DNA from: Streptomyces sp. NBC_01197
GTDB lineage: Bacteria > Actinomycetota > Actinomycetes > Streptomycetales > Streptomycetaceae
Assembly (NCBI RefSeq): GCF_036010505.1
Contig: NZ_CP108569.1
Span: forward strand, 4,889,001 to 4,953,000
DNA: 64,000 nucleotides
Reading direction: 5' to 3'
In this document: piece by piece, positions 35,390 to 46,621 of the stretch
How the letters are laid out: the number at the start of each line of letters is the position of its first letter
How positions within the stretch are numbered: the stretch's first letter is position 1
Notes under the pieces: generated by a model
Seen by the model: only the letters and a program-made list of their open reading frames with translations
What the model was told of the DNA's origin: nothing
The model's database searches: none
Translations under genes and position numbers: made by a program

Positions 35390-35635
35390 TCAGGGGGCTG
35401 GGTGGTTGCCAAGGGCGCTCAGCGGAATCCCCCCGCCTTGCAGGCCGGCTACGAAACTGGTCCAGGCGGGACCGTCGAACATGAGCTGGGGGCCCAGGGG
35501 GTTCTTGCTGTCCCGCAGGGCGGTCACTCCGGACACCACCGCGGCTTCGACGCACTCGCTGGTATTGGCCCCACTGTAAGAGGACTTGAACCAGGTGCCG
35601 GGCGGTATGAACGGGTTGCCGGTGGGGCTCTGCAT
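35390..35635 (-). CDS. DUF397 protein
   Basis: 81 residues. WFKSSYSGANTSECVEAA and VTALRDSKNPLGPQLMF match the DUF397 signature. Such small proteins pair with XRE regulators of the WhiJ type in Streptomyces and modulate them. The XRE stop and this ATG overlap by one base with GAGGAG upstream (an in-frame GTG sits one codon earlier). Forms a triad with the XRE gene and the divergent GHKL ATPase. Confidence 0.93.
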   Translation of the reverse strand: MQSPTGNPFIPPGTWFKSSYSGANTSECVEAAVVSGVTALRDSKNPLGPQLMFDGPAWTSFVAGLQGGGIPLSALGNHPAP

Positions 35636-36480
35636 CACATCTCCTCAAGGACTCGCTCGATCATGGCGGATGACGCTGCCATGTCCAACGCTTGGGCCCT
35701 GAGGTAATCAAACGCAAGTCTGTACCGGTCCAGTTCGTCGTCCTTCTCCATGAAGAGGGAGCCGAGGTGGATATCGACGTAGACGACGTCCAGGCTCGGT
35801 TCCACGCCGCCGAGGATCACGAAACTGCCCATGGCCGCCGAGTGGGCGCCCTTTGAGAACGGCAGGATCTGGAGGGTGATGCCGGGAGACTCATTGGCCT
35901 GAAGCAGTTGGCTGAGCTGCCCCTTCATCACCTCGCGCGAGCCGACTACCCGGCGGACCACTGACTCGTCGAGGATCGCCCAGAGGTGCAGCGGCTTGTC
36001 CCGGGAGAGGATCTCCTGGCGCCTCATGCGGATGTCCACGAGCCGCTTGGTCTCTTCGGCTGGCAGCCGCATCTCGGACGCGTGCTGTACGGCTTCTGTG
36101 TACTGACGGGTCTGGAGAAGCCCGGGCACGTAGAGGCAGTTGAAGTGGTCTTCGCGGAGTGCTTCGTCTTCAAGGGTGAGCAGGAGGTTCATGGTCTCCG
36201 GAATGGAGTCGGAGTAAGTGTTCCACCAACCCTGCTTCTTGGCGTCTTTGGCGAGCGACACGAGGGCGTTGCGTTCGGCGTCGCTGGCTCCGTACTCGCG
36301 GCAGAGAGCGTCCACGACGGGCCACTTCACTGGCCCTTCCTGAGTCTCATACCGGCTGATGGTCGCCTTTGAGACCGCGACCAGCCGCCCGGCCTCCTCC
36401 AGAGTCATGCCCTTGCGTGCACGCAACTTGCGCATCATCGAACCGAGTTGGCGTCGCCTCGTAGTGGTCCTCACTGGCAT
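35635..36480 (-). CDS. XRE-family regulator with DUF5753 domain (WhiJ type)
   Basis: 281 residues. The helix-turn-helix lies at about 11-65 (LRARKGMTLEEAGRLVAVS, KATISRYE). The DUF5753 domain follows, with LYVPGLLQTRQYTEAV and MRRQEIL and a C-terminal ITLQILPFSKGAHSAAMGSF. These regulators control development or secondary metabolism in Streptomyces. It abuts DUF397 downstream and is divergent from an ATPase gene, the standard three-gene arrangement. It may also control the membrane-protein/deaminase genes that follow. Confidence 0.93.
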   Translation of the reverse strand: MPVRTTTRRRQLGSMMRKLRARKGMTLEEAGRLVAVSKATISRYETQEGPVKWPVVDALCREYGASDAERNALVSLAKDAKKQGWWNTYSDSIPETMNLLLTLEDEALREDHFNCLYVPGLLQTRQYTEAVQHASEMRLPAEETKRLVDIRMRRQEILSRDKPLHLWAILDESVVRRVVGSREVMKGQLSQLLQANESPGITLQILPFSKGAHSAAMGSFVILGGVEPSLDVVYVDIHLGSLFMEKDDELDRYRLAFDYLRAQALDMAASSAMIERVLEEM

Positions 36481-36690
36481 GGGAACAGCCCTCCGCTGCG
36501 TTTAGGCCGACGGCCCGGCCGGCAACAGGCTATGACGCCGCGACGCCCCTGGTCCGCCAGATTCACCCGGACGGTTTTCATGAGAAGTTACACAACGAGA
36601 TTTCTAACTGCCATACTCGCTGCCGTAGCGCTACGCAGCGCAGTCGTACGGATACGGCTCGGCGCAGGCTGACGTGGCGCGGGAGGGAGT

Positions 36691-37323
36691 GTGGCCATGT
36701 ATGGCTTCGATGTCACTGAACCCCGGCTCCGCTGCGTCCTGCCGTTCGCGGCAGAGCCGACTCAACTGCGCCCGCTGAGAAGGGCCGTGTGGGAGCGGCT
36801 CTCTTATTGGGGCGTTCCCGCTCTCACGGATGAGGTGCAGCTCGTGGTCACGGAGCTGGCGACGAATGTGATCAAACATGTTGGCCCGGGGGTGGCGGCG
36901 ACGCTTGTGCTGGAGTCTGCCTATGGCCATCTCCGTGTCGAGCTTCACGACACGAGCCACGTGGTGCCGGCTCTGGCGGACCCGCAGTGCGGTGACGAGT
37001 GCGGCCGGGGGCTGCATCTGCTGGCCGCACTGGCGGTGGGCTGGGGAACCCTCGTCACAGCCACAGGAAAAGCGGTCTGGTGTGAGCTGGCGCTGCCAGC
37101 CGATCGGCGCTGCCGTCGCATTCAGCGGGCGTCGGCTGTGCTTGACGGCTACGGCCGTATGACAGGAGCGCCGACGCTGGCCGGCGGCGGCCGACGGTCA
37201 GCCCTTGAAGAGTCAGCGACGGACCTCATTGCTGATCTCCTGCACTGGCATGCGGCGCAGGGTGGAGACCCGGACGAGATCCTGGACCGGGCACAGACGC
37301 ACTTTGAAGCGGAGGCCGCGTAA
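36691..37323 (+). CDS. GHKL ATP-binding protein (RsbW-like)
   Basis: 210 residues. The N box ELATNVIKHVG, G1-type LHDTS and G2 ECGRGLHLL are present, as in anti-sigma-factor kinases. C-terminal extension of about 75 residues is unrelated to kinases. In Streptomyces such proteins sit next to WhiJ/DUF397 pairs, as here across 210 bp. Start at GTG 36691 (GGGAGG at 4 nt) or ATG 36697. Confidence 0.88.
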   Translation: MAMYGFDVTEPRLRCVLPFAAEPTQLRPLRRAVWERLSYWGVPALTDEVQLVVTELATNVIKHVGPGVAATLVLESAYGHLRVELHDTSHVVPALADPQCGDECGRGLHLLAALAVGWGTLVTATGKAVWCELALPADRRCRRIQRASAVLDGYGRMTGAPTLAGGGRRSALEESATDLIADLLHWHAAQGGDPDEILDRAQTHFEAEAA

Positions 37324-37355
37324 TGCACTGGGGACATGGACCAAGGCTCCAGCAG

Positions 37356-38108
37356 CTATGCGGTTCTGGGAGAGCGGGTGAGCTCCGCAATCTCGGCCCG
37401 AAGGGCAGCCGGGGTACGCCAGGATGCCCCGCGATGGTTTCTGTGGCACATGCGGTGACAGTTGGCACAGAGGAAGGCGAGGTCTTCCAGCTTCGTTTCC
37501 CGGGGTCCGGAAATATGGAGGGGGAGCGTGTGGTGGACCTCGATGTACCCCTCGCCGAGCGCCCCGTATCTCTCTCCGAAGTTGAACGTGCACACCGTGC
37601 ACTGGAGGGGGTGCCCGAGCCTGCGGGCTTGGCCGATCTTGCGCCTGCGCAAGGCAGGGTTGCGCTCACGGGAGATCGCCCACCGGGCCAGCAGTCGGCC
37701 CTCGGCGGCGGGGACTCCGTCCTCGGCCACTTCGTCCGGCTGTTCCGGGATGAGGAAGAGTTCGCCGGACGAGATACCGTCTTCGATTGCCTGGGCCGCG
37801 AGAAGCATCTCGGCCTCGCGCTCGATGAATGCCTGAGTGACGAGCGCGGTCAGCCTCCCGCCTCTGGTAGCCGGGCCCGCGTAGTCCGGCCGGCTTGTAA
37901 GCAGGTCCGCGCTCTTGCGGCTGATGCTGGCAGCCGAGCGGAACTCGGGCACCTGACCGGCGGCGTCCCCGTGCAGCGGCAGAGAGCGGAGCAGCTCGGC
38001 AAGCTCCTGTGTGGACGCCTGGTAGGCCCTGAGCTGCCGCCATCCGTCGTTCACCACGCGAGAGCAGATCAGCAACAACTCGTCCCAGGTCCAGTCAGGG
38101 CTACGCAT
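37356..38108 (-). CDS. HNH endonuclease of the restriction locus
   Basis: 250 residues. The C-terminal HNH domain has CTVCTFNFGERYG, IEVHHTLPLH and LAFLCANCHRMCHR, resembling McrA-type modification-dependent or type II HNH nucleases. The N-terminal 150 residues are helical and may recognise DNA. A TACGAT box 7 nt before the ATG (38108) shows a leaderless start and argues against an ATG 23 codons upstream. It is divergent from the cytosine methyltransferase, so it probably belongs to the same island. Confidence 0.85.
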   Translation of the reverse strand: MRSPDWTWDELLLICSRVVNDGWRQLRAYQASTQELAELLRSLPLHGDAAGQVPEFRSAASISRKSADLLTSRPDYAGPATRGGRLTALVTQAFIEREAEMLLAAQAIEDGISSGELFLIPEQPDEVAEDGVPAAEGRLLARWAISRERNPALRRRKIGQARRLGHPLQCTVCTFNFGERYGALGEGYIEVHHTLPLHISGPRETKLEDLAFLCANCHRMCHRNHRGASWRTPAALRAEIAELTRSPRTA

Positions 38109-38266
38109 GGGCCATATCGTATGAGTGTCCACTGTGGCGTGGCTGCCATTCTGAGCAGGGTGGGGAGTGCTGCACACTATGGAGCACGATTGTCAGTGGG
38201 TCATGTCACCCTCTGTGAGGGCGGGTCGCAAAGAGTGCCTGCCGTGCATGTTGGTAAGGAGGGTGC

Positions 38267-39409
38267 ATGACCAGCACTGAGAGGAAGTTCACCTCAGTTG
38301 AGATCTGCGCTGGGGCGGGAGGGCAGGCTGTCGGCCTTCACAACGCGCTGTTCCGACACCTCGCGTTGATCGAAGTAGATCCGCATGCGTGCGAAACCCT
38401 CCGGAAGAACGTGGTCGGCAACAAGGAATGGGGCGGGTGTGAGGTCATGGAGGAGGACCTCACCCAGCTCAAACCAGTGGAGCTGCGGCGTCATCTCAAA
38501 CTGAACAGGGGGGACCTGGATCTCCTGGCAGGGGGCGTTCCGTGCCCGCCGTTCTCTGTTGCCGGGAAGCAGCTGGGGGAGAATGACGAGCGGGATCTGT
38601 TTCCCGTCATGCTCAAGCTTGTGGAAGAACTCCAGCCCAAAGCTGTGATGATCGAAAACGTCAAGGGCCTGCTGGACCGGAAGTTTGAAGGCTACCGGGA
38701 CAGCATCTTGAAGCAGCTGGAAGAGTGGGGGTACCAGAAGTGCTACTGGCGGCTTCTGGAAGCAAAGGACTACGGCGTGCCGCAACTCAGGCCGCGTGCC
38801 ATCCTCGTTGCGATGAAGGCCGAGTACAAGAAGCACTTCCTGTGGTCTGCGCCTGAGATGCGCCCCGTTGTGACGGTTGGGGAAGCGCTCGGTCGTTCCA
38901 TGCAGCACCGGTTTGATGCCGTTGACGATCCTCGTGCTGAGGCCGCGCTCGCTGATTGGCGGGAAATGGCTTCGAAGGGAGTGGCGCCGACGCTAGTGGG
39001 CGGATCAAAGAAGCATGGTGGTGCCGATCTTGGTCCAACTCGGGCGAAGAAGGCATGGAAATTGCTCGGTGTATGCGGCCTGGGTGTCGCGAATGATCCG
39101 CTTGAGATGAAGGACCCGGAACGTGACCTCTTTGCTGCTGCGGGCCCGAAACTCACCGTGAGCCAAGCGGCTATCATTCAGGGATTTCCTGAGACGTGGA
39201 ATTTCAGCGGCCGTAAAACTGCGGCATATCGGCAGGTGGGAAATGCCTTTCCGCCACCCGTCGCGCAGGCGGTTGGAGAGCAGATCATCGCGGCCCTTGA
39301 AGCGAAGGGTAAAGCCGAGACCCTCTTCGATGTGCCAGCTCCGTCAGCGCCCGTCAGGACGAAGCCTCTCAACCGTAGAGGCGATCTTGAACGCGCAGGC
39401 GTCCGGTGA
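38267..39409 (+). CDS. DNA (cytosine-5-)-methyltransferase
   Basis: 380 residues. Motif I is EICAGAGGQAVGL, motif IV GGVPCPPFS with catalytic Cys93, motif VI ENV (Glu130), motif VIII QLRPRA and motif X QVGNAFPP. The target-recognition region lies about 195-290. With NaeI- and NgoMIV-like nucleases on the other strand, the expected target is GCCGGC, but specificity cannot be proven from sequence. AAGGAGGGTGC gives an ideal RBS. The last 66 nt overlap the convergent vsr gene. Confidence 0.95.
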   Translation: MTSTERKFTSVEICAGAGGQAVGLHNALFRHLALIEVDPHACETLRKNVVGNKEWGGCEVMEEDLTQLKPVELRRHLKLNRGDLDLLAGGVPCPPFSVAGKQLGENDERDLFPVMLKLVEELQPKAVMIENVKGLLDRKFEGYRDSILKQLEEWGYQKCYWRLLEAKDYGVPQLRPRAILVAMKAEYKKHFLWSAPEMRPVVTVGEALGRSMQHRFDAVDDPRAEAALADWREMASKGVAPTLVGGSKKHGGADLGPTRAKKAWKLLGVCGLGVANDPLEMKDPERDLFAAAGPKLTVSQAAIIQGFPETWNFSGRKTAAYRQVGNAFPPPVAQAVGEQIIAALEAKGKAETLFDVPAPSAPVRTKPLNRRGDLERAGVR

Positions 39410-39805
39410 TTCATGCTCCCAGAACCGGAGCACGGTCCAGCCGGCCTCTGTGAGCTGGTGATCGGTATCCCGGTCGCGCGCCATGTTCCGGGCAATCTTG
39501 TCCGACCAGTACCCGGGGTTGGTCTTGGGTGAGATGTAGTGATCCGGGCATCCGTGCCAGTAACAGCCGTCAACAAAGACGGCGACCTTCGCCCGGCGGA
39601 AGACCAGGTCTGCTGTCCGCCGGAGGTCAGGCAGGGGCTTAGCTGCCACGCGGTAGCGAAGTCCCTGCGCGTGCACGAGCCGACGGATCAGCCGTTCTGG
39701 TTTCGTATCGCGGCTCCGGATTGCCTGCATGTTTCTGCGCCGCGCGGCTGAGGATGCCCAGGAACCCTGCGGAGGTTCCCAGTCGTCGTTGGATGTCACG
39801 TGCAT
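39344..39805 (-). CDS. vsr: Very short patch repair (Vsr) endonuclease
   Basis: 153 residues. RNMQAIRSRDTKPERLIRR at the N-terminus and TADLVFRRAKVAVFVDGCYW with catalytic Asp66, followed by HGCPDH and KIARNMARD, are Vsr hallmarks. Vsr nicks T-G mismatches left by deamination of 5-methylcytosine, so it protects methylated sites of the neighbouring MTase. Its 3' end overlaps the end of the methyltransferase gene on the opposite strand by 66 nt. It starts 7 nt after the NgoMIV-like stop. Confidence 0.95.
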   Translation of the reverse strand: MHVTSNDDWEPPQGSWASSAARRRNMQAIRSRDTKPERLIRRLVHAQGLRYRVAAKPLPDLRRTADLVFRRAKVAVFVDGCYWHGCPDHYISPKTNPGYWSDKIARNMARDRDTDHQLTEAGWTVLRFWEHESPDACAFKIASTVERLRPDGR

Positions 39806-39812
39806 CGTTCCA

Positions 39813-40568
39813 TTACCAGCGGATCAGAGTGGGTGCGAGCTCTTCGTACGGCAGTACCCGCCGCTGTTCTACGCACTCATGCCAGTCGTCCTGTTGCTGT
39901 CTGTTTCCGACGACTGACACAGCATGCGCCATCGCATCGAAGGCAATGTGGTACACGGCATCGACCTCGCCCGTGCCCCGGGCGATAGCCGCGATTCTAC
40001 TCGGCAGAGGCTCTGCAGTGACTGTTACAAGGTGAGGCTGACGGCCGCGACGATGCCGGATCATCTGAATGAATTCGTGCCGGATGTTCTGGACTCGATC
40101 CGAACGGATGGTCCACTTACAGGAGACTGCAGCATGCAGAAATGGGTCAGGGCTGTGAGCTAATGAAGGGTCGCTGAGGCCCACGGTGACATCAGGCTTA
40201 ATCAGATAGTCGCGCCCAATCGCGACACGGAGTTCGGGGCTCTCCTTCACGAGTTCATCAACGCGGCGCAGGTGTGAGTACTGGGCGAATGAGGTGACAA
40301 GTTCTTTTCGGTCGAGCTTCCAGGTGCGCGTTGGGTCTGCCTCAGGAAGGATACGTGAGAGATCGGACATCACCTTCTGTTCCAGGACGGGGCCGGGTTT
40401 AGGTGGTGTGTCTGGCGTTACTACCCGCAGGGCGCCTAGGGAATCAAGAACTGATCCGGCTAGAGCGATTGACTGCTCATTATCGGAATCGGCGCTATTC
40501 GGGACGATTCTCCCGGTTTTATCGGCCTTCTTCCAGCCCAACAGGTCAGTCGCAAAGGTAGCGCTCAT
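39813..40568 (-). CDS. NgoMIV-family type II restriction endonuclease
   Basis: 251 residues. The C-terminal core has KPDV (Asp126), SCK (Lys151) and Glu165 at exactly K-X13-E, then LVTVTAEPLPSRIAAIARGTGEVDAVYHIAF, all as I remember NgoMIV, which cuts G^CCGGC. The spacing Asp126-Lys151 is shorter than the 46 residues of the prototype. The ATG at 40568 lies 18 nt after the NaeI-like stop; a TTG at 40583 is also possible. It sits in a row with Vsr and the NaeI-like gene. Confidence 0.88.
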   Translation of the reverse strand: MSATFATDLLGWKKADKTGRIVPNSADSDNEQSIALAGSVLDSLGALRVVTPDTPPKPGPVLEQKVMSDLSRILPEADPTRTWKLDRKELVTSFAQYSHLRRVDELVKESPELRVAIGRDYLIKPDVTVGLSDPSLAHSPDPFLHAAVSCKWTIRSDRVQNIRHEFIQMIRHRRGRQPHLVTVTAEPLPSRIAAIARGTGEVDAVYHIAFDAMAHAVSVVGNRQQQDDWHECVEQRRVLPYEELAPTLIRW

Positions 40569-40586
40569 GAATACAAAATCCAATAT

Positions 40587-41549
40587 CTATTTGGTGTGGG
40601 AAGGGAGCGAAGGGCCCGGTTCGATGGCATCTTCTGGCTGTGCGCAGCACCACTTGGTGCCATCAAGGGTAGCGCTGGGCCGGTCAGGCTGATGGCCAGA
40701 AGAACGTGTGACTCGCACGCTGACGAACTCGCCTTCACGTGGCGAAAGAACGCCCAGGCCCTCAGCGATCCTGCGATGACTCTCGTAGTCGCCCATGATC
40801 AGTATCCCTTCGCTCTGGAGGGCTGATCGCGCCCCACCGTTGCCGCGGACTCGCTTCATGTAGTCCTTCTGCTGGGCCACTGCGCGAACCACGTTGCGTC
40901 CGATGCGACGTTTCTGGACAAGGCGAAACAGCTCAATAAGGCGGGCCTGGCCAGATGAGTGCGCGAAAACAGTCGCGCGGTCTACGGGATCCATGTGGAG
41001 AAGGATGTTCTCTGGCAGTTCCGCATCGCGCCATAGCCAGAGAATCTTCTCCCTGTGAGCCGCTTTGACCGTGAGTTTCATGTCACGGTTGCTCCCGCCG
41101 TTGAGCCACTCTTCCCGGATGCGGAGAAGACCCGCACTCCAGCGGCTCTTGGAGTCGTCTGCCCATACGAGGAGACAAATGTGCCCCATGGCTTCGGGAG
41201 GGATCATCCAGCCCCCGAACTGCTGCGAGTACTTGCAGTCGACGTCCGAACCCGCGATCTTGTAGTCCATGTCGGTTCCATCGGCAAATTTGAATTCCCT
41301 TTGCAGGTTGATCTCAACGACCGTTCCCGCGTGGGTCTTCTCCGTCTTGAACAGAGTCTTCCAGTCGTATCGTCCTGTGGCCTCGCCATTCAATAGCTGA
41401 TCGATGGTGTCCCGCAGTACGGTGGCGAAGCGCAGGCCCGTCGGGTCAAGGCGCTGGATTTCATCACGCACGGCGAGTAGTGCGTAATCCTCAGCCCATT
41501 GGGGGGCGCCAGAGATGCCGGTAGCTGCGTTCAGGTCGCATGGTAGCAA
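40587..41549 (-). CDS. NaeI-family type IIE restriction endonuclease
   Basis: 320 residues, close to the 317 of NaeI. The endonuclease domain keeps all catalytic residues with NaeI spacing: Glu79 (VVEINLQ), Asp95, Asp104 and Lys106 (VDCKYS), equivalent to Glu70, Asp86, Asp95 and Lys97. Leu52 corresponds to Leu43, whose change to Lys turns NaeI into a topoisomerase. The C-terminal half, with HMDP, VQKRRIGRNVVRAVAQQKDY and RVRGNGGAR, matches the CAP-like effector domain. NaeI cuts GCC^GGC after binding two sites. TTG start with AAGGA at about 7 nt. Confidence 0.93.
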   Translation of the reverse strand: MLPCDLNAATGISGAPQWAEDYALLAVRDEIQRLDPTGLRFATVLRDTIDQLLNGEATGRYDWKTLFKTEKTHAGTVVEINLQREFKFADGTDMDYKIAGSDVDCKYSQQFGGWMIPPEAMGHICLLVWADDSKSRWSAGLLRIREEWLNGGSNRDMKLTVKAAHREKILWLWRDAELPENILLHMDPVDRATVFAHSSGQARLIELFRLVQKRRIGRNVVRAVAQQKDYMKRVRGNGGARSALQSEGILIMGDYESHRRIAEGLGVLSPREGEFVSVRVTRSSGHQPDRPSATLDGTKWCCAQPEDAIEPGPSLPSHTK

Positions 41550-41640
41550 GAGGTCGTCCTTCTGGCTGTTGAGGAAATTTTTATCGAGGCGGATCTTATG
41601 GGTTCACATCCACGTTCGCTTTACTCTCATAAAGTGAGCT

Positions 41641-41662
41641 CTTTGTCCGGAAACGGACAAGG
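41641..41662. promoter_or_regulatory. GAAA-loop hairpin before the NaeI-like gene
   Basis: TTGTCCG (41643-41649) and CGGACAA (41654-41660) flank GAAA; two further pairs extend the stem to 9 positions. It lies 3 nt beyond the stop of the truncated ATPase and about 90 nt before the endonuclease start, so it could terminate or attenuate transcription or serve as an operator for a restriction control protein. Confidence 0.5.
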
Positions 41663-41664
41663 CG

Positions 41665-41997
41665 TCAGTGTCCGAGAGCTTCAGGAGGATAGTTCTGACG
41701 CCCGCCCACCGTCATGGCGACATCCAGATCCTCATCATCCGTCCCCATGCCGTCGTCGATGACGAGCAGGCTGGCGAGACGGTCGTCTTCCCGCAGGAAG
41801 CTGACGACTACGTTCTGGGAACGGGCGTCCACTGAGTTGTCGATGAGGTCGGCGATGGCTGCCGCAAAGCTGTAGCCCTGGTGGGTCAGAGAGTCGACGT
41901 AGCGCGCTGCAGAAGGGAGCAGCTGTTTGCTGCCGGAGGTAGGGACCTCGAACTGCCAGTCAACGGTGGGCTCACAGGGCATGTGTTCCTCGCGCAC
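41665..41997 (-). pseudogene. Truncated MORC-like GHKL ATPase
   Basis: 110 residues representing only the start of a para-MORC or HSP90-like ATPase. The N box ADLIDNSVDARSQ and the G1 motif VIDDGMGTD are intact. The frame stops at PPEALGH, exactly where the conserved FGLGLK phosphate loop should begin, and no remainder exists downstream. Full-length members of about 500-600 residues accompany Vsr, cytosine methyltransferases and restriction enzymes in bacteria. It is most likely a deletion remnant. Starts at a GTG (41997) or ATG 41982. Confidence 0.75.
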
Positions 41998-42536
41998 ACA
42001 GAGGACTGGGCCTGCGTGGGGGATAGGGCGGCCAGTCGAGTCAGGATTACCAGATGTGAAGATACTGCAATGGGCTACTGGCTGGCATGTGTACTCGTCA
42101 TGTTGGCCGAAAGAGGCAAGGGTCCGCCCGTCCTTCGTCGTTCGGGGGCGGACTACGCAACAACCCGAGTGGGACCGCCCGTCAAAGAGTTGGCCAGCCC
42201 TTGCTTCAGATGCGGACCGTGATCTTGTTTGGCAGGGCGGTGTGGGACAGTCCGGCCATGTTGATCATCGTGAGTTGTGCGGACTGGCAAGGAGGCGGTG
42301 GTCGCAGGTCACAGCATGGTTGCGTGCTCGACCGACCGGGCTTGCGCGCCGCTTTCTGGGTAGCTGCGGGTTACAGGAATGCCGATCTCTCTCGGTGAGC
42401 GGCGTGCGGTGCGGCTGTATGGCCTCCCGTCGAGTTGCCCCCGGGAGTAGTCCCCGGCCCCGACCAAGTGGCGGTATGGGAGAAGTCACAGGCCGACGGC
42501 TGGCGAAGCCGGGGCGCAGTGACAAGGGGATGTCGC
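41998..42536. other. 539-bp spacer between restriction island and permease
   Basis: No gene was recognised on either strand. The composition is mixed and open frames there show no coding bias. It may be the degenerate right end of the island, though no direct repeat, integrase or att site is visible. The last 20 bp carry the RBS AAGGGGA of the permease. Confidence 0.5.
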
Positions 42537-44207
42537 ATGGCCGATATATCCAACTCTCCGAGTGGATCCTCGGAGCAACCAAGACTCCGGCGGGACATGG
42601 GCCGGGTCGGTCTGTTGTTCGCTGGTGTGGGGTCGATCATTGGCTCGGGCTGGCTCTTCGGTGCGCTCAATGCGGCCAAGCTGGCTGGGCCCGCCTCGAT
42701 CTTCTCCTGGGCGATCGCCGCCGTGATGATCCTGCTCATTGGGCTGTGTTTCGCCGAGCTGGGGACCATGTTTCCGGTATCCGGTGGTGTGGTGCGTTTT
42801 CCGCATATCTCCTTCGGGTCGTTCGCCAGTTACACCATGGGGTGGATCAACTGGATCGCCGCGGCGACCGTCGCCCCCATTGAGGTGGAAGGCGCCCTGC
42901 AATACGCCACTAAATGGGCAGACTTCACCCAATTCCATCCGAAAACCGGGACTCATACGCTGACGTCACTCGGTTATGTCATCGCGGTCATCGCGATGGC
43001 GTTCTTCGTGGCGCTGAACTACTTCGGTATCCGCTGGTTCGCGCGGGTCAACAACGTACTGGTGTGGTGGAAGCTGGCAGTCATCATCATGGTGATCGTC
43101 GCCTTCGCCATCACGGCGTTCCATGGCCGGAACTTCACCGCCGCGGCGTACGGCGGGTTCGCGCCGGGTGGGATGAAAGGCATCTTCACTGCCATCTCCA
43201 CCGCTGGGATCACCTTCTCCTTCCTCGGTTTCCGCCAAGGTGTCGAGCTGGCGGGAGAGACGGACAACCCCAAGCGCAACGTCCCGTTCGCGATCATCGG
43301 TTCGGTGCTGCTCACCGGAGTGATCTACATCCTGCTGGAGATCGCCTTCATCGCCTCGGTCCCCGGCCACGATCTGAAGTCTTCCGGCGGCTGGCTCAAC
43401 CTGGCGTTCGCCAACGACTTCGGTCCACTCGCCGCGATCGCCGGCGCTATCGGGCTCGGCTGGCTGGCGTACATCCTGTATATCGACGCCGTGATCTCTC
43501 CTGCGGACACCGGTCTGGTCTACACCACGGTTACGGCCCGTATCTCGTACGCCATGGGGCGGAACGGGAACGCGCCGGAAGCGCTGACGAAGACGACCTC
43601 GCCTGGAGCGCCGATGATCAGTCTGATCGTCACGTTCGTGCTGGGGCTGATCGTCTTTCTGCCCTTCCCGAGCTGGCAGCAGCTGGTCGGATTCATCACC
43701 TCCGCGACGGTGCTGTCCTTCGGTTCCGGTCCGGTCGTGCTGGCTGCGATGCGGCGCCAGATACCGGACTGGAACCGGCCGTTCCGGGTGCCCGGCGGTG
43801 ATGTGATTCCGTTCCTCGGGCTGTACTCGGCGAACCTGATCGTCTACTGGGCCGGCTGGAACACCAACTGGAAGCTGTTCGCGACCATCGGTATCGGCTT
43901 CGTCCTTCTGGCGATCTTCGAGATCACCGGCAAGGGCCGTGCCCCGAAGCTGGACTGGGCGTCGGGCCTGCCGTGGGTGGCGCCGTGGCTGGTGGGTCTG
44001 GCCCTCATCAGCTGGGTGGGCGATTACGACGGCGGCCTCGGTTACATCGGGCTCGGCTGGGGCTTCCTGGTCAACCTGGCACTCGCCGCGATCGTCTATG
44101 TACTGGCCCTGCGGTCCAAGCTGCCCACGGTGCGGGTGGAGCAGCACATCGAGGAAGCCCGTCATGAGGCCCGGGTCGAGGAAGAGGAGCTCGGGCTGCC
44201 GGCGTAA
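42537..44207 (+). CDS. APC-family amino-acid permease
   Basis: 556 residues, 12-14 membrane segments. MGRVGLLFAGVGSIIGSGWLFG is TM1, ISFGSFASYTMGWINWIAA follows, and GFRQGVELAGETDNPKRNVPFAI marks the central region. The long size and the conserved NPKRNVP resemble the YveA/aspartate:proton type of the APC family. Substrate not determined. The C-terminus is a charged acidic tail (VEQHIEEARHEARVEEEELG). ATG with AAGGGGA. It stands alone, and G+C returns to core values. Confidence 0.9.
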   Translation: MADISNSPSGSSEQPRLRRDMGRVGLLFAGVGSIIGSGWLFGALNAAKLAGPASIFSWAIAAVMILLIGLCFAELGTMFPVSGGVVRFPHISFGSFASYTMGWINWIAAATVAPIEVEGALQYATKWADFTQFHPKTGTHTLTSLGYVIAVIAMAFFVALNYFGIRWFARVNNVLVWWKLAVIIMVIVAFAITAFHGRNFTAAAYGGFAPGGMKGIFTAISTAGITFSFLGFRQGVELAGETDNPKRNVPFAIIGSVLLTGVIYILLEIAFIASVPGHDLKSSGGWLNLAFANDFGPLAAIAGAIGLGWLAYILYIDAVISPADTGLVYTTVTARISYAMGRNGNAPEALTKTTSPGAPMISLIVTFVLGLIVFLPFPSWQQLVGFITSATVLSFGSGPVVLAAMRRQIPDWNRPFRVPGGDVIPFLGLYSANLIVYWAGWNTNWKLFATIGIGFVLLAIFEITGKGRAPKLDWASGLPWVAPWLVGLALISWVGDYDGGLGYIGLGWGFLVNLALAAIVYVLALRSKLPTVRVEQHIEEARHEARVEEEELGLPA

Positions 44208-44336
44208 CGGGCGTCCGCCTGCGGTGGTGTGAGCGTTGCCGAACGTGTGCCGCTCACACCACCCGGCCGACTGCGAAGGGGTCGCCCGGCCCAGGCGAGG
44301 TCAGTGGAGGCAGGGCGCCACGCGTACCGTGCCTGT

Positions 44337-44663
44337 ATGAGTACAGGCACGCCACCAGCCACACCACCGGCAACGCCACCAGGCACGTTGACGCTGCATA
44401 TCGGGCACGAGGAACTGGCCATCCGGCGGCGCTACGAGGTTGCCAGCATCCTCAACGACATCCTCGTCGCCGTCTGGTTCATCGTCGGCAGCGTGATGTT
44501 CTTCTCCGAGCGCTGGACCGTGACCGGGACGTGGTGCTTCCTCATCGGCAGTATCGAACTGCTGATCCGCCCGGTCATCCGGCTCTCCAGGCACCTGCAC
44601 ATCCAGCGCGTCCGCTCCTCCCGTGAGAACGGGCAGGCCGCTGACTCCACGCAGGACTACTAG
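44337..44663 (+). CDS. YrhK-domain membrane protein
   Basis: 108 residues. After a Thr/Pro repeat leader (PPATPPATPPGT), LTLHIGHEELAIRRRYEVASILNDILVAVWFIVGSVMFFS begins the YrhK domain, which contains two membrane segments (about 45-62 and 70-88). Function is unknown. TACCGT exactly 6 nt before the ATG shows leaderless transcription. Confidence 0.85.
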   Translation: MSTGTPPATPPATPPGTLTLHIGHEELAIRRRYEVASILNDILVAVWFIVGSVMFFSERWTVTGTWCFLIGSIELLIRPVIRLSRHLHIQRVRSSRENGQAADSTQDY

Positions 44664-44723
44664 GGTCACGGCCTGGCCGGCGTCTCCCCGCCCGTAGCGT
44701 CACCGGTAACGCCCGGTGGCGGC

Positions 44724-45719
44724 CTATGCCCCATGGCACCCCCGATACGCCACCCCCGACCCGCACCAGCAAGCTGTGTTCCGGGCCGGCGGCCAGGGCA
44801 CGGCACGGCCGCGCGCCGCCAGTGTCGTGGCGTACAGGGGGAGCAGTTCCGTTTCTGATGGGGACGCTGACTCCGAGGCGGCGAAAGCCTCGTACGACGG
44901 GATGCTTCCCGTCACGATGCCCAGGTTCGTCGTGCCCGCCGCCGACAGTTCCCGCAGCGCCGATTCGATTTCGATCAGGTGGGTCGTGTGCGAGGGGTAC
45001 TCCGACCCCAGGGCCGGGTACGCCGCCAGGAGTTCGGCGAGTTCCCGGGCCTGCCAGTGCAGTACCGCCACCGGGAACGGGCGGGACAGCGCAGCCCGGT
45101 AGGTGCCCAACTCCGACTGGAGGCGGGCGATTTCCGCTCGCAGGACGGCCGGGTCATTCGAACCGAGCGCCCACAGGCGGTTCGGGTCGTGGAGTTCGTC
45201 CAGGCTGATGTCGCCCATGTGCAGGGAGTCCGCCAGGGCGTCCCACGCGTCGTGCTCGTTGCCCAGGGCCCTGCTCACGCGGTGGCGGCCCGTGAGGAGG
45301 GCCTGGGCCGCGTACGGGACCTCTTCCGCCGGATCGACCAGCAGCGTCAGGGCCTTGGTGAAGGTGGCGTGGGCCGCGTCCGGTTCGTCGTGGGCCTCCA
45401 GGGTCTCCGCGACGATCGCCCAGGGGGCCGGGTCCTGCGGTGTGGAGGCGCGGATGCCGTCGATCATGGCGCGGGCTTCCGCCTCGTGGCCGTACTCCCA
45501 CAGGTTGGCCGCCTGCAGGGCCTTGATCAGGGCGAGGTTCTCGGCCGGGCCTGCCAGCAGCCGGTCGTAGAGCGTCGTGGCGCGGGCGCGGTCGCCGGCC
45601 AGTTCCAGGTGGGCCGCGGCCTGGAGCAGCAGCGGCTCCTGGTCCTCCGGGTACTGCTCGGCGGTGCGCAGCAGCCGCTCGGCTTCGGCGTGGTGATCAG
45701 CGGGAGTGTCGGGGCGCAT
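44724..45719 (-). CDS. TPR protein with C-terminal SEC-C zinc motif
   Basis: 331 residues. Helical tetratricopeptide-like repeats fill about 8-150 (AERLLRTAEQYPEDQEPLLLQAAAHLELAG and following). The C-terminus NTACWCGSGVAYRGCHG is a SEC-C zinc-binding motif like that of SecA. The middle has no known domain. Role unknown; SEC-C proteins often bind ribosomes or translocases. TACGGT 7 nt before the ATG (45719) indicates a leaderless mRNA, divergent from sortase E. Confidence 0.85.
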   Translation of the reverse strand: MRPDTPADHHAEAERLLRTAEQYPEDQEPLLLQAAAHLELAGDRARATTLYDRLLAGPAENLALIKALQAANLWEYGHEAEARAMIDGIRASTPQDPAPWAIVAETLEAHDEPDAAHATFTKALTLLVDPAEEVPYAAQALLTGRHRVSRALGNEHDAWDALADSLHMGDISLDELHDPNRLWALGSNDPAVLRAEIARLQSELGTYRAALSRPFPVAVLHWQARELAELLAAYPALGSEYPSHTTHLIEIESALRELSAAGTTNLGIVTGSIPSYEAFAASESASPSETELLPLYATTLAARGRAVPWPPARNTACWCGSGVAYRGCHGA

Positions 45720-45784
45720 GATGCCCACCGTACTGCCGTGCGGGGCTCTGGAGACTTCTGGATCCAGCGCTTATGGTGCCGCCC

Positions 45785-46621
45785 GTGCAGCAGCCGATGC
45801 GGGACACGATTCCGGTAGTGGTGCGGCGGGCGGCCTCACGGCGCCGTACCGTCCTCGCGCGCGGGCTGTGGACCGGTGCCGAAGTGACCGTGACGCTCGG
45901 GCTGATCGTGCTGCTGTTCGTCGTGCAGCAGCTGTGGTGGACCAACCGGGAGGCGCGGCAGGGCGCCGCCCGTCAAGTGCAGGCGCTGGAGCGGCAGTGG
46001 GACGGCGGCCAGGGGCGCGGAAGCGGTGCGGGGGACGGGGATGTGACCCCCGCCACTCCGGCGCCCGGTCCTGCGGCAAGTCCCGGCGCCGGTCCGGGTG
46101 GCCGGTCGCGGTCCGCGCCCGGGGGCGGGGGCGGTACGGCCGTCCGGCAGGTGGCCCGGGCGCCCGTCTGGGACAAGGCGTACGCGGTGATCCGGATCCC
46201 GCGCATCGGGATCACCGCGCCGATCGCTCAGGGGGTCAGCAAGCAGAATATTCTCAACAAGGGTTATGTGGGGCATTACGTACAGACCGCCGGGCCCGGC
46301 CAGGCCGGGAACTTCGCGCTCGCCGGGCACCGCAACACCCATGGTGAGCCCTTCCGTTACATCAACCGGCTGCGGCACGGCGACACCGTCACCATCGAGA
46401 CCGGCAGCGCCGTGTACACCTACGTCGTCGACAAGGGCATCCCGCAGACCTCCGCGCGCGACAGCGGGGTGATCGCCGCCGTGCCGCGCAGCACCGTCAA
46501 GCCGCAGTACGGCTACAGCACGCCCGGTTACTACCTGACCCTGACCACCTGCACCCCCGAGTACACCTCCCGCTACCGGCTCGCCGTCTGGGCCACCCTG
46601 CGGTCCATGCGGCCTCGTTGA
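45785..46621 (+). CDS. Class E sortase
   Basis: 278 residues. A short basic tail and one membrane helix (about 32-50) precede a disordered Gly/Pro region (60-115). The sortase fold follows, with catalytic His in NFALAGHRNTHG, Cys in LTLTTCTPEYTSRYR and the Arg after it. Class E enzymes of Streptomyces anchor LAXTG proteins to the wall and affect aerial growth. A TATGGT box 7 nt before this GTG points to a leaderless start; an in-frame ATG is four codons upstream. A fitting substrate is encoded at 56735. Confidence 0.93.
   Translation: MQQPMRDTIPVVVRRAASRRRTVLARGLWTGAEVTVTLGLIVLLFVVQQLWWTNREARQGAARQVQALERQWDGGQGRGSGAGDGDVTPATPAPGPAASPGAGPGGRSRSAPGGGGGTAVRQVARAPVWDKAYAVIRIPRIGITAPIAQGVSKQNILNKGYVGHYVQTAGPGQAGNFALAGHRNTHGEPFRYINRLRHGDTVTIETGSAVYTYVVDKGIPQTSARDSGVIAAVPRSTVKPQYGYSTPGYYLTLTTCTPEYTSRYRLAVWATLRSMRPR

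Follow-up and report, generated by a model that had tools for sequence, protein, structure and literature searches.

The window analysed here, a stretch of 64,000 nucleotides corresponding to positions 4889001-4953000 of the 7.7 Mb genome of Streptomyces sp. NBC_01197, carries a restriction-modification (R-M) island in which the genes for two unrelated restriction endonucleases, one of the NaeI family and one of the NgoMIV family, lie side by side next to a single cytosine-5 (C5) DNA methyltransferase gene. On the minus strand, the NaeI-family gene (40587-41549, 320 aa) is followed after 18 bp by the gene for a short form of the NgoMIV-family endonuclease (39813-40568, 251 aa; start ATG at 40568, an upstream TTG at 40583 being possible too) and after a further 7 bp by the gene for a Vsr mismatch endonuclease (39344-39805; TIGR00632, 138.9 bits, cut-off 97.85). 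The methyltransferase gene, with a predicted target of GCCGGC, is located at 38267-39409 on the plus strand (Pfam DNA_methylase, E 2e-61), and its end overlaps vsr on the opposite strand by 66 bp. The outer member of the cassette is an HNH endonuclease gene (37356-38177, minus strand; Pfam HNH, E 6e-6), a homologue of which was found at the equivalent relative position in L057-L061, L071 and other loci of the comparative set described below. Each nuclease family was found once in the genome, the two PF09015 matches being two pieces of one frame. A first-pass annotation of this DNA had placed the two nucleases next to each other in an island with a cytosine methylase, Vsr and an HNH nuclease, and profile and PDB matches bear out both the adjacency and the membership; the HNH gene, however, lies mostly to the left of the interval that had been given for the island (38109-41997).

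The open reading frame at 40587-41549 (minus strand) matched Pfam NaeI (PF09126) with an E value of 9e-123 (409.6 bits, cut-off 25). The match spans the whole of NaeI, both domains are present, and a phmmer search of PDB returned 1ev7 as the sole row (E 1.7e-84). Glu79, Asp95, Asp104 and Lys106, which had been singled out earlier, were correctly chosen and correspond to NaeI E70, D86, D95 and K97, residues that we take to be catalytic, and the leucine at NaeI position 43 is also kept. The NgoMIV-family frame (39813-40583, minus strand) matched Pfam NgoMIV_restric (PF09015) with an E value of 8e-48 (163.4 bits, cut-off 23.2), and phmmer against PDB gave 1fiu at E 1.9e-35, the other 21 rows having E values of at least 0.57. 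The protein has the fold of NgoMIV by structure-based comparison, and its earlier placement in that family holds. In the alignment to 1fiu, S185, which presumably has a role in NgoMIV, is kept in the window protein, and so are all of E70, D140, K187 and E201; the PD...K-X12-13-E site is K151-X13-E165, as had been read previously, when numbered from the ATG at 40568. The CCGG reader R191-S192-D193-R194 and the outer-pair residues D34 and R227 are kept as well, the catalytic, CCGG-reading and outer-pair roles being those described in PMC4652773 and PMC6344858.

A survey of genomes for the same gene row, which the first-pass annotation had called for, showed that the pairing recurs in related bacteria. 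In a profile search of 394 genomes of the family, PF09015 was found in 18 and PF09126 in 76. Both families were present in 15 of the 18 PF09015 genomes compared to 3.5 expected (hypergeometric P 3e-9, related genomes being counted as independent), and the two matches were 59-1382 bp apart in 13 of the 18. Co-occurrence of the two nuclease families is above chance. A contig scan found both nucleases in 17 of the best 80 of 484 loci, a sample that is biased towards relatives of the window because the best loci were taken; the family set and a phylum-wide set considered below are less biased. Among plasmids, 16 records carried NgoMIV relatives and three carried NaeI relatives, all below 60% identity, and no record had both; a phage search, made for NgoMIV only, gave one record. 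No account of a NaeI and NgoMIV pair was found in the literature covered, which excluded REBASE and subscription papers, and sections 4 and 5 of PMC2292703 do not name the pair.

The NgoMIV-like proteins of 97 loci were aligned with 1FIU; 27 of these loci are paired with NaeI, 43 are alone and 27 have a contig or stretch end within 3.5 kb, and 11 duplicate, overlapping or fragment loci were omitted (L096, L097, L157, L111, L146, L078 and L082-L086). In the corresponding tree of 95 rows, from which the fragmentary L058, L139 and L148 were left out, the 26 paired rows need seven changes (at least five of them forced, given the starred branches), and the starred clade that contains the window is paired in each of its 12 rows. 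In a quick NaeI tree of 50 rows, made without bootstrap, the pairing label changes nine times, at least six of them forced. The alignment also showed that NgoMIV segment 143-177, which has 35 residues in 1fiu, is reduced to 13 residues in the window protein. Its length is 8-16 residues across the 26 paired loci whose frame is intact (6 in the broken piece of L058) and 32-39 residues in 11 canonical loci. No NaeI was found near the seven canonical loci with enough flank, and the remaining four lie too near a contig or stretch end. In NgoMIV, a type IIF enzyme that acts as a tetramer and cuts two sites at once, this segment presumably carries tetramer contacts. Loss of the segment as a feature specific to NaeI-paired enzymes was rejected, there being 59 short-segment loci without NaeI in the available stretch, contig-edge cases included.

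In a gonococcal record, the gene for the canonical nuclease, which aligns with 1fiu over 286/286 residues, lies directly downstream of a C5 methylase gene; the window methylase is 52.5% identical to this methylase over 343 aa. NgoAIV is listed with the target GCCGGC and 5-methylcytosine (5mC) as product in PMC6789123, and we infer that the gonococcal gene pair is NgoAIV. When eight methylases from gonococcal, NaeI-only, canonical-NgoMIV-only and paired loci were aligned, the block APT(L/I)VGGSKKHGGADLGP(T/S)R at positions 240-259, which presumably reads the target, had 18 positions invariant in all eight. In a quick methylase tree of 69 rows without bootstrap, NaeI-only, NgoMIV and paired labels interleave; the labels were set with a 5.5 kb limit, so that L092 and L103 are labelled as having none though they are paired. 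The methylases of L071 (canonical NgoMIV), L179 (NaeI), L060 (both) and L112 (short NgoMIV, by locus) share 80-86% mutual identity, and profile searches found no PF09126 in the L071 genome and no PF09015 in the L179 genome. The window methylase belongs to a sister group, with 58-60% identity to these four, 77% to L061 (both) and 76% to L173 (NaeI only). Nuclease genes are thus exchanged next to methylases that are close relatives. Any methylase has to protect against the nuclease that it accompanies, and with the methylase type common to these loci the simplest account would be that all of the nucleases cut the same site. Judged from these sequences, both nucleases very probably attack GCCGGC, in different ways, and a shared specificity under one methylase is well supported by inference.

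Several observations weigh against this interpretation. Of the 27 paired loci, no more than 16 have a window-type methylase; the methylase argument does not reach the other 11, which have a distant one (L062-L068, L141, L147, L153 and L158). The window protein has proline in place of Q63, which in NgoMIV makes a minor-groove contact. In the seven loci L062-L068, where a diverged NgoMIV-like protein with a distant methylase lies near NaeI, E70 and R227 are lost and E201 is changed to Q or H; this protein has an aspartate at position 197, the position proposed for use by BsaWI, and activity is therefore still possible. The changes at Q63 and R227 would fit an NgoMIV-like enzyme that reads a site other than GCCGGC, such as CCGG in a different context, in which case the two nucleases would not be neoschizomers. 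We consider this highly improbable, because the window protein retains D34, R191, S192, D193, R194 and R227, and because NgoMIV-only, NaeI-only and paired loci are protected by methylases of a single type that is related to the gonococcal one. The interpretation offered in the first-pass annotation, layered cleavage or a new specificity of one enzyme, is supported in part, layering being plausible. GCCGGC avoidance, taken as an indicator of activity, gave no signal: 82 sites were seen compared to 114.6 expected, the seventh lowest among the 25 palindromic hexamers whose expected count was 20 or more, in counts covering the 64 kb window and the fetched loci. Seen/expected values were alike in the paired group of loci (0.82) and the mostly unpaired one (0.79), the group labelled as unpaired Streptomyces including other genera (L072, L073, L094 and L104).

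Other points on the same side concern how far the pair is retained. In a phylum-wide sample of 396 genomes, PF09126 was found in none of the five PF09015 genomes besides that of the window, although a silent search is no proof of absence. Among the 27 paired loci, that of Streptomyces djakartensis (L058/L157) shows a disrupted NgoMIV frame, unless the assembly is in error, and the gene may be dispensable there. This broken frame, the frequency of solo forms of both nucleases and the swapping of nucleases behind closely related methylases are what would be expected if nuclease turnover at a defence hotspot had left the pair behind as a by-product, with the newcomer either replacing the first enzyme or being lost. 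Because the methylase protects the host, a second GCCGGC enzyme would be harmless and could enter freely. This main rival explanation is judged unlikely, since it does not sit well with a window clade that is still paired in every row (the broken L058 being outside that tree), with a pairing that changed repeatedly and includes a second, diverged type, or with the low dN/dS values. These were 0.07-0.19 for NaeI (dS finite in 9 of 11 pairs) and 0.08-0.15 for NgoMIV (in 8 of 11), and 0.14 and 0.15, respectively, in the cleanest pair, L057-L091; most dS values exceed 1, near saturation, which lessens their weight in favour of a maintained pair.

In the working model of a maintained pair, methylated GCCGGC would be recognized as self. 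The NaeI-type enzyme would cut unmethylated GCCGGC, with stimulation by a second (effector) site, and the short NgoMIV-type enzyme would also cut unmethylated GCCGGC, at G^CCGGC if it acts as the prototype does; the cut of the NaeI prototype, GCC^GGC, is blunt. Vsr would limit mutation at the methylated cytosine. As the reason for two nucleases, complementary substrate coverage is tentatively favoured over accretion, on sequence data that would fit either. Functional layering of the two enzymes is plausible, and the pair may defend against phages by a double cut. Since either enzyme can be found without the other, an obligate heteromer is not favoured.

Variation was also seen in the slot beside NaeI. 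In L180, a 328-residue protein with SSKWTWRSDR fills the slot between NaeI and Vsr and is a far relative of the NgoMIV profile (hhalign 93.9%, E 1.5e-7). That the second slot is always occupied by a CCGG-family enzyme was rejected, as a protein with the motif KWxxR(x)[DE]R was found in only 1 of 63 further NaeI loci (L180), in a scan that would miss diverged enzymes without the motif; looser-motif matches near NaeI in the 63 loci resemble chance. Other neighbours of NaeI were a gene pair at L179:6508-8234, between a SEC-C-type gene and NaeI, the first product of which fits the defence models NsnA and PD-T4-2_A, and a protein of about 265 aa that recurs at L075:8934-9734, L169:6693-7487 and L186:9270-10058 and for which Pfam and PADLOC gave no match. 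Also recurrent by NaeI or the methylase is a SNF2-type helicase gene whose companion has about 470-650 aa (L169:1445-4693, L172, L182, L184 and L185). NaeI domains were also seen within open frames of 1510-1727 aa in L188, L191 and L215, and NaeI-like domains are reported as effectors of NTPase conflict systems in PMC7159879.

Upstream of the NaeI-family gene, two genes have shrunk to remnants in a deletion scar at 41599-41997 (minus-strand pieces 41599-41664 and 41665-41997). The second piece encodes about the first 110 of about 517 residues of a GHKL/paraMORC-like (MzaB-like) ATPase (HATPase_c_3, E 2e-12) and matches the first 103 residues of the 517-524 aa ATPases of L058, L060 and L071; long homologues of the remnants are present in L058, L060, L088 and others. 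The island lies in a defence hotspot common to relatives (35635-46621), with a DUF5753 Xre gene as left flank and a SEC-C gene (44724-45728) and a sortase gene (45773-46621) as right flank. Similar flanks recur in L173, L175, L178 and others, and the hotspot of the window has an extra amino-acid permease gene (42435-44207). In the hexamer counts, CTCGAG (the XhoI site) was absent from the window (1-64000; 0 compared to 22.1 expected by a maximum-order Markov estimate) and reached 0.31, 0.31 and 0.48 of expectation in three pooled locus groups, mostly of the same family, and 0.75 in other genera.

Type II R-M systems are usually seen as having one nuclease per methylase specificity, and in the present loci a single methylase repeatedly serves two unrelated nucleases. 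Loci that have NaeI, NgoMIV or the two together, while site and methylase type do not vary, amount to a natural experiment on a question that is open for types IIE and IIF, namely why enzymes with a requirement for one site, two sites or effector sites are retained by bacteria; the short NgoMIV subfamily likewise offers a natural test of the role of the missing segment. Among known systems, the nuclease of CglI/NgoAVII is of the PLD type and works with an ATP-hydrolysing partner, whereas the NgoMIV and NaeI prototypes do not. Compared to the NaeI protein (type IIE, PDB 1ev7/1iaw), to which this comparison is confined, the window enzyme matches over the full length with 48% identity in the structural alignment and keeps the catalytic E/D/D/K, and differs in being accompanied by an NgoMIV-family enzyme. 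Compared to NgoMIV (NgoAIV) of Neisseria gonorrhoeae, the window enzyme shares the nuclease fold, the catalytic set and the CCGG reader, stands beside a related C5 methylase and is approximately 22 residues shorter in segment 143-177, and its gene row has in addition a second nuclease and Vsr.
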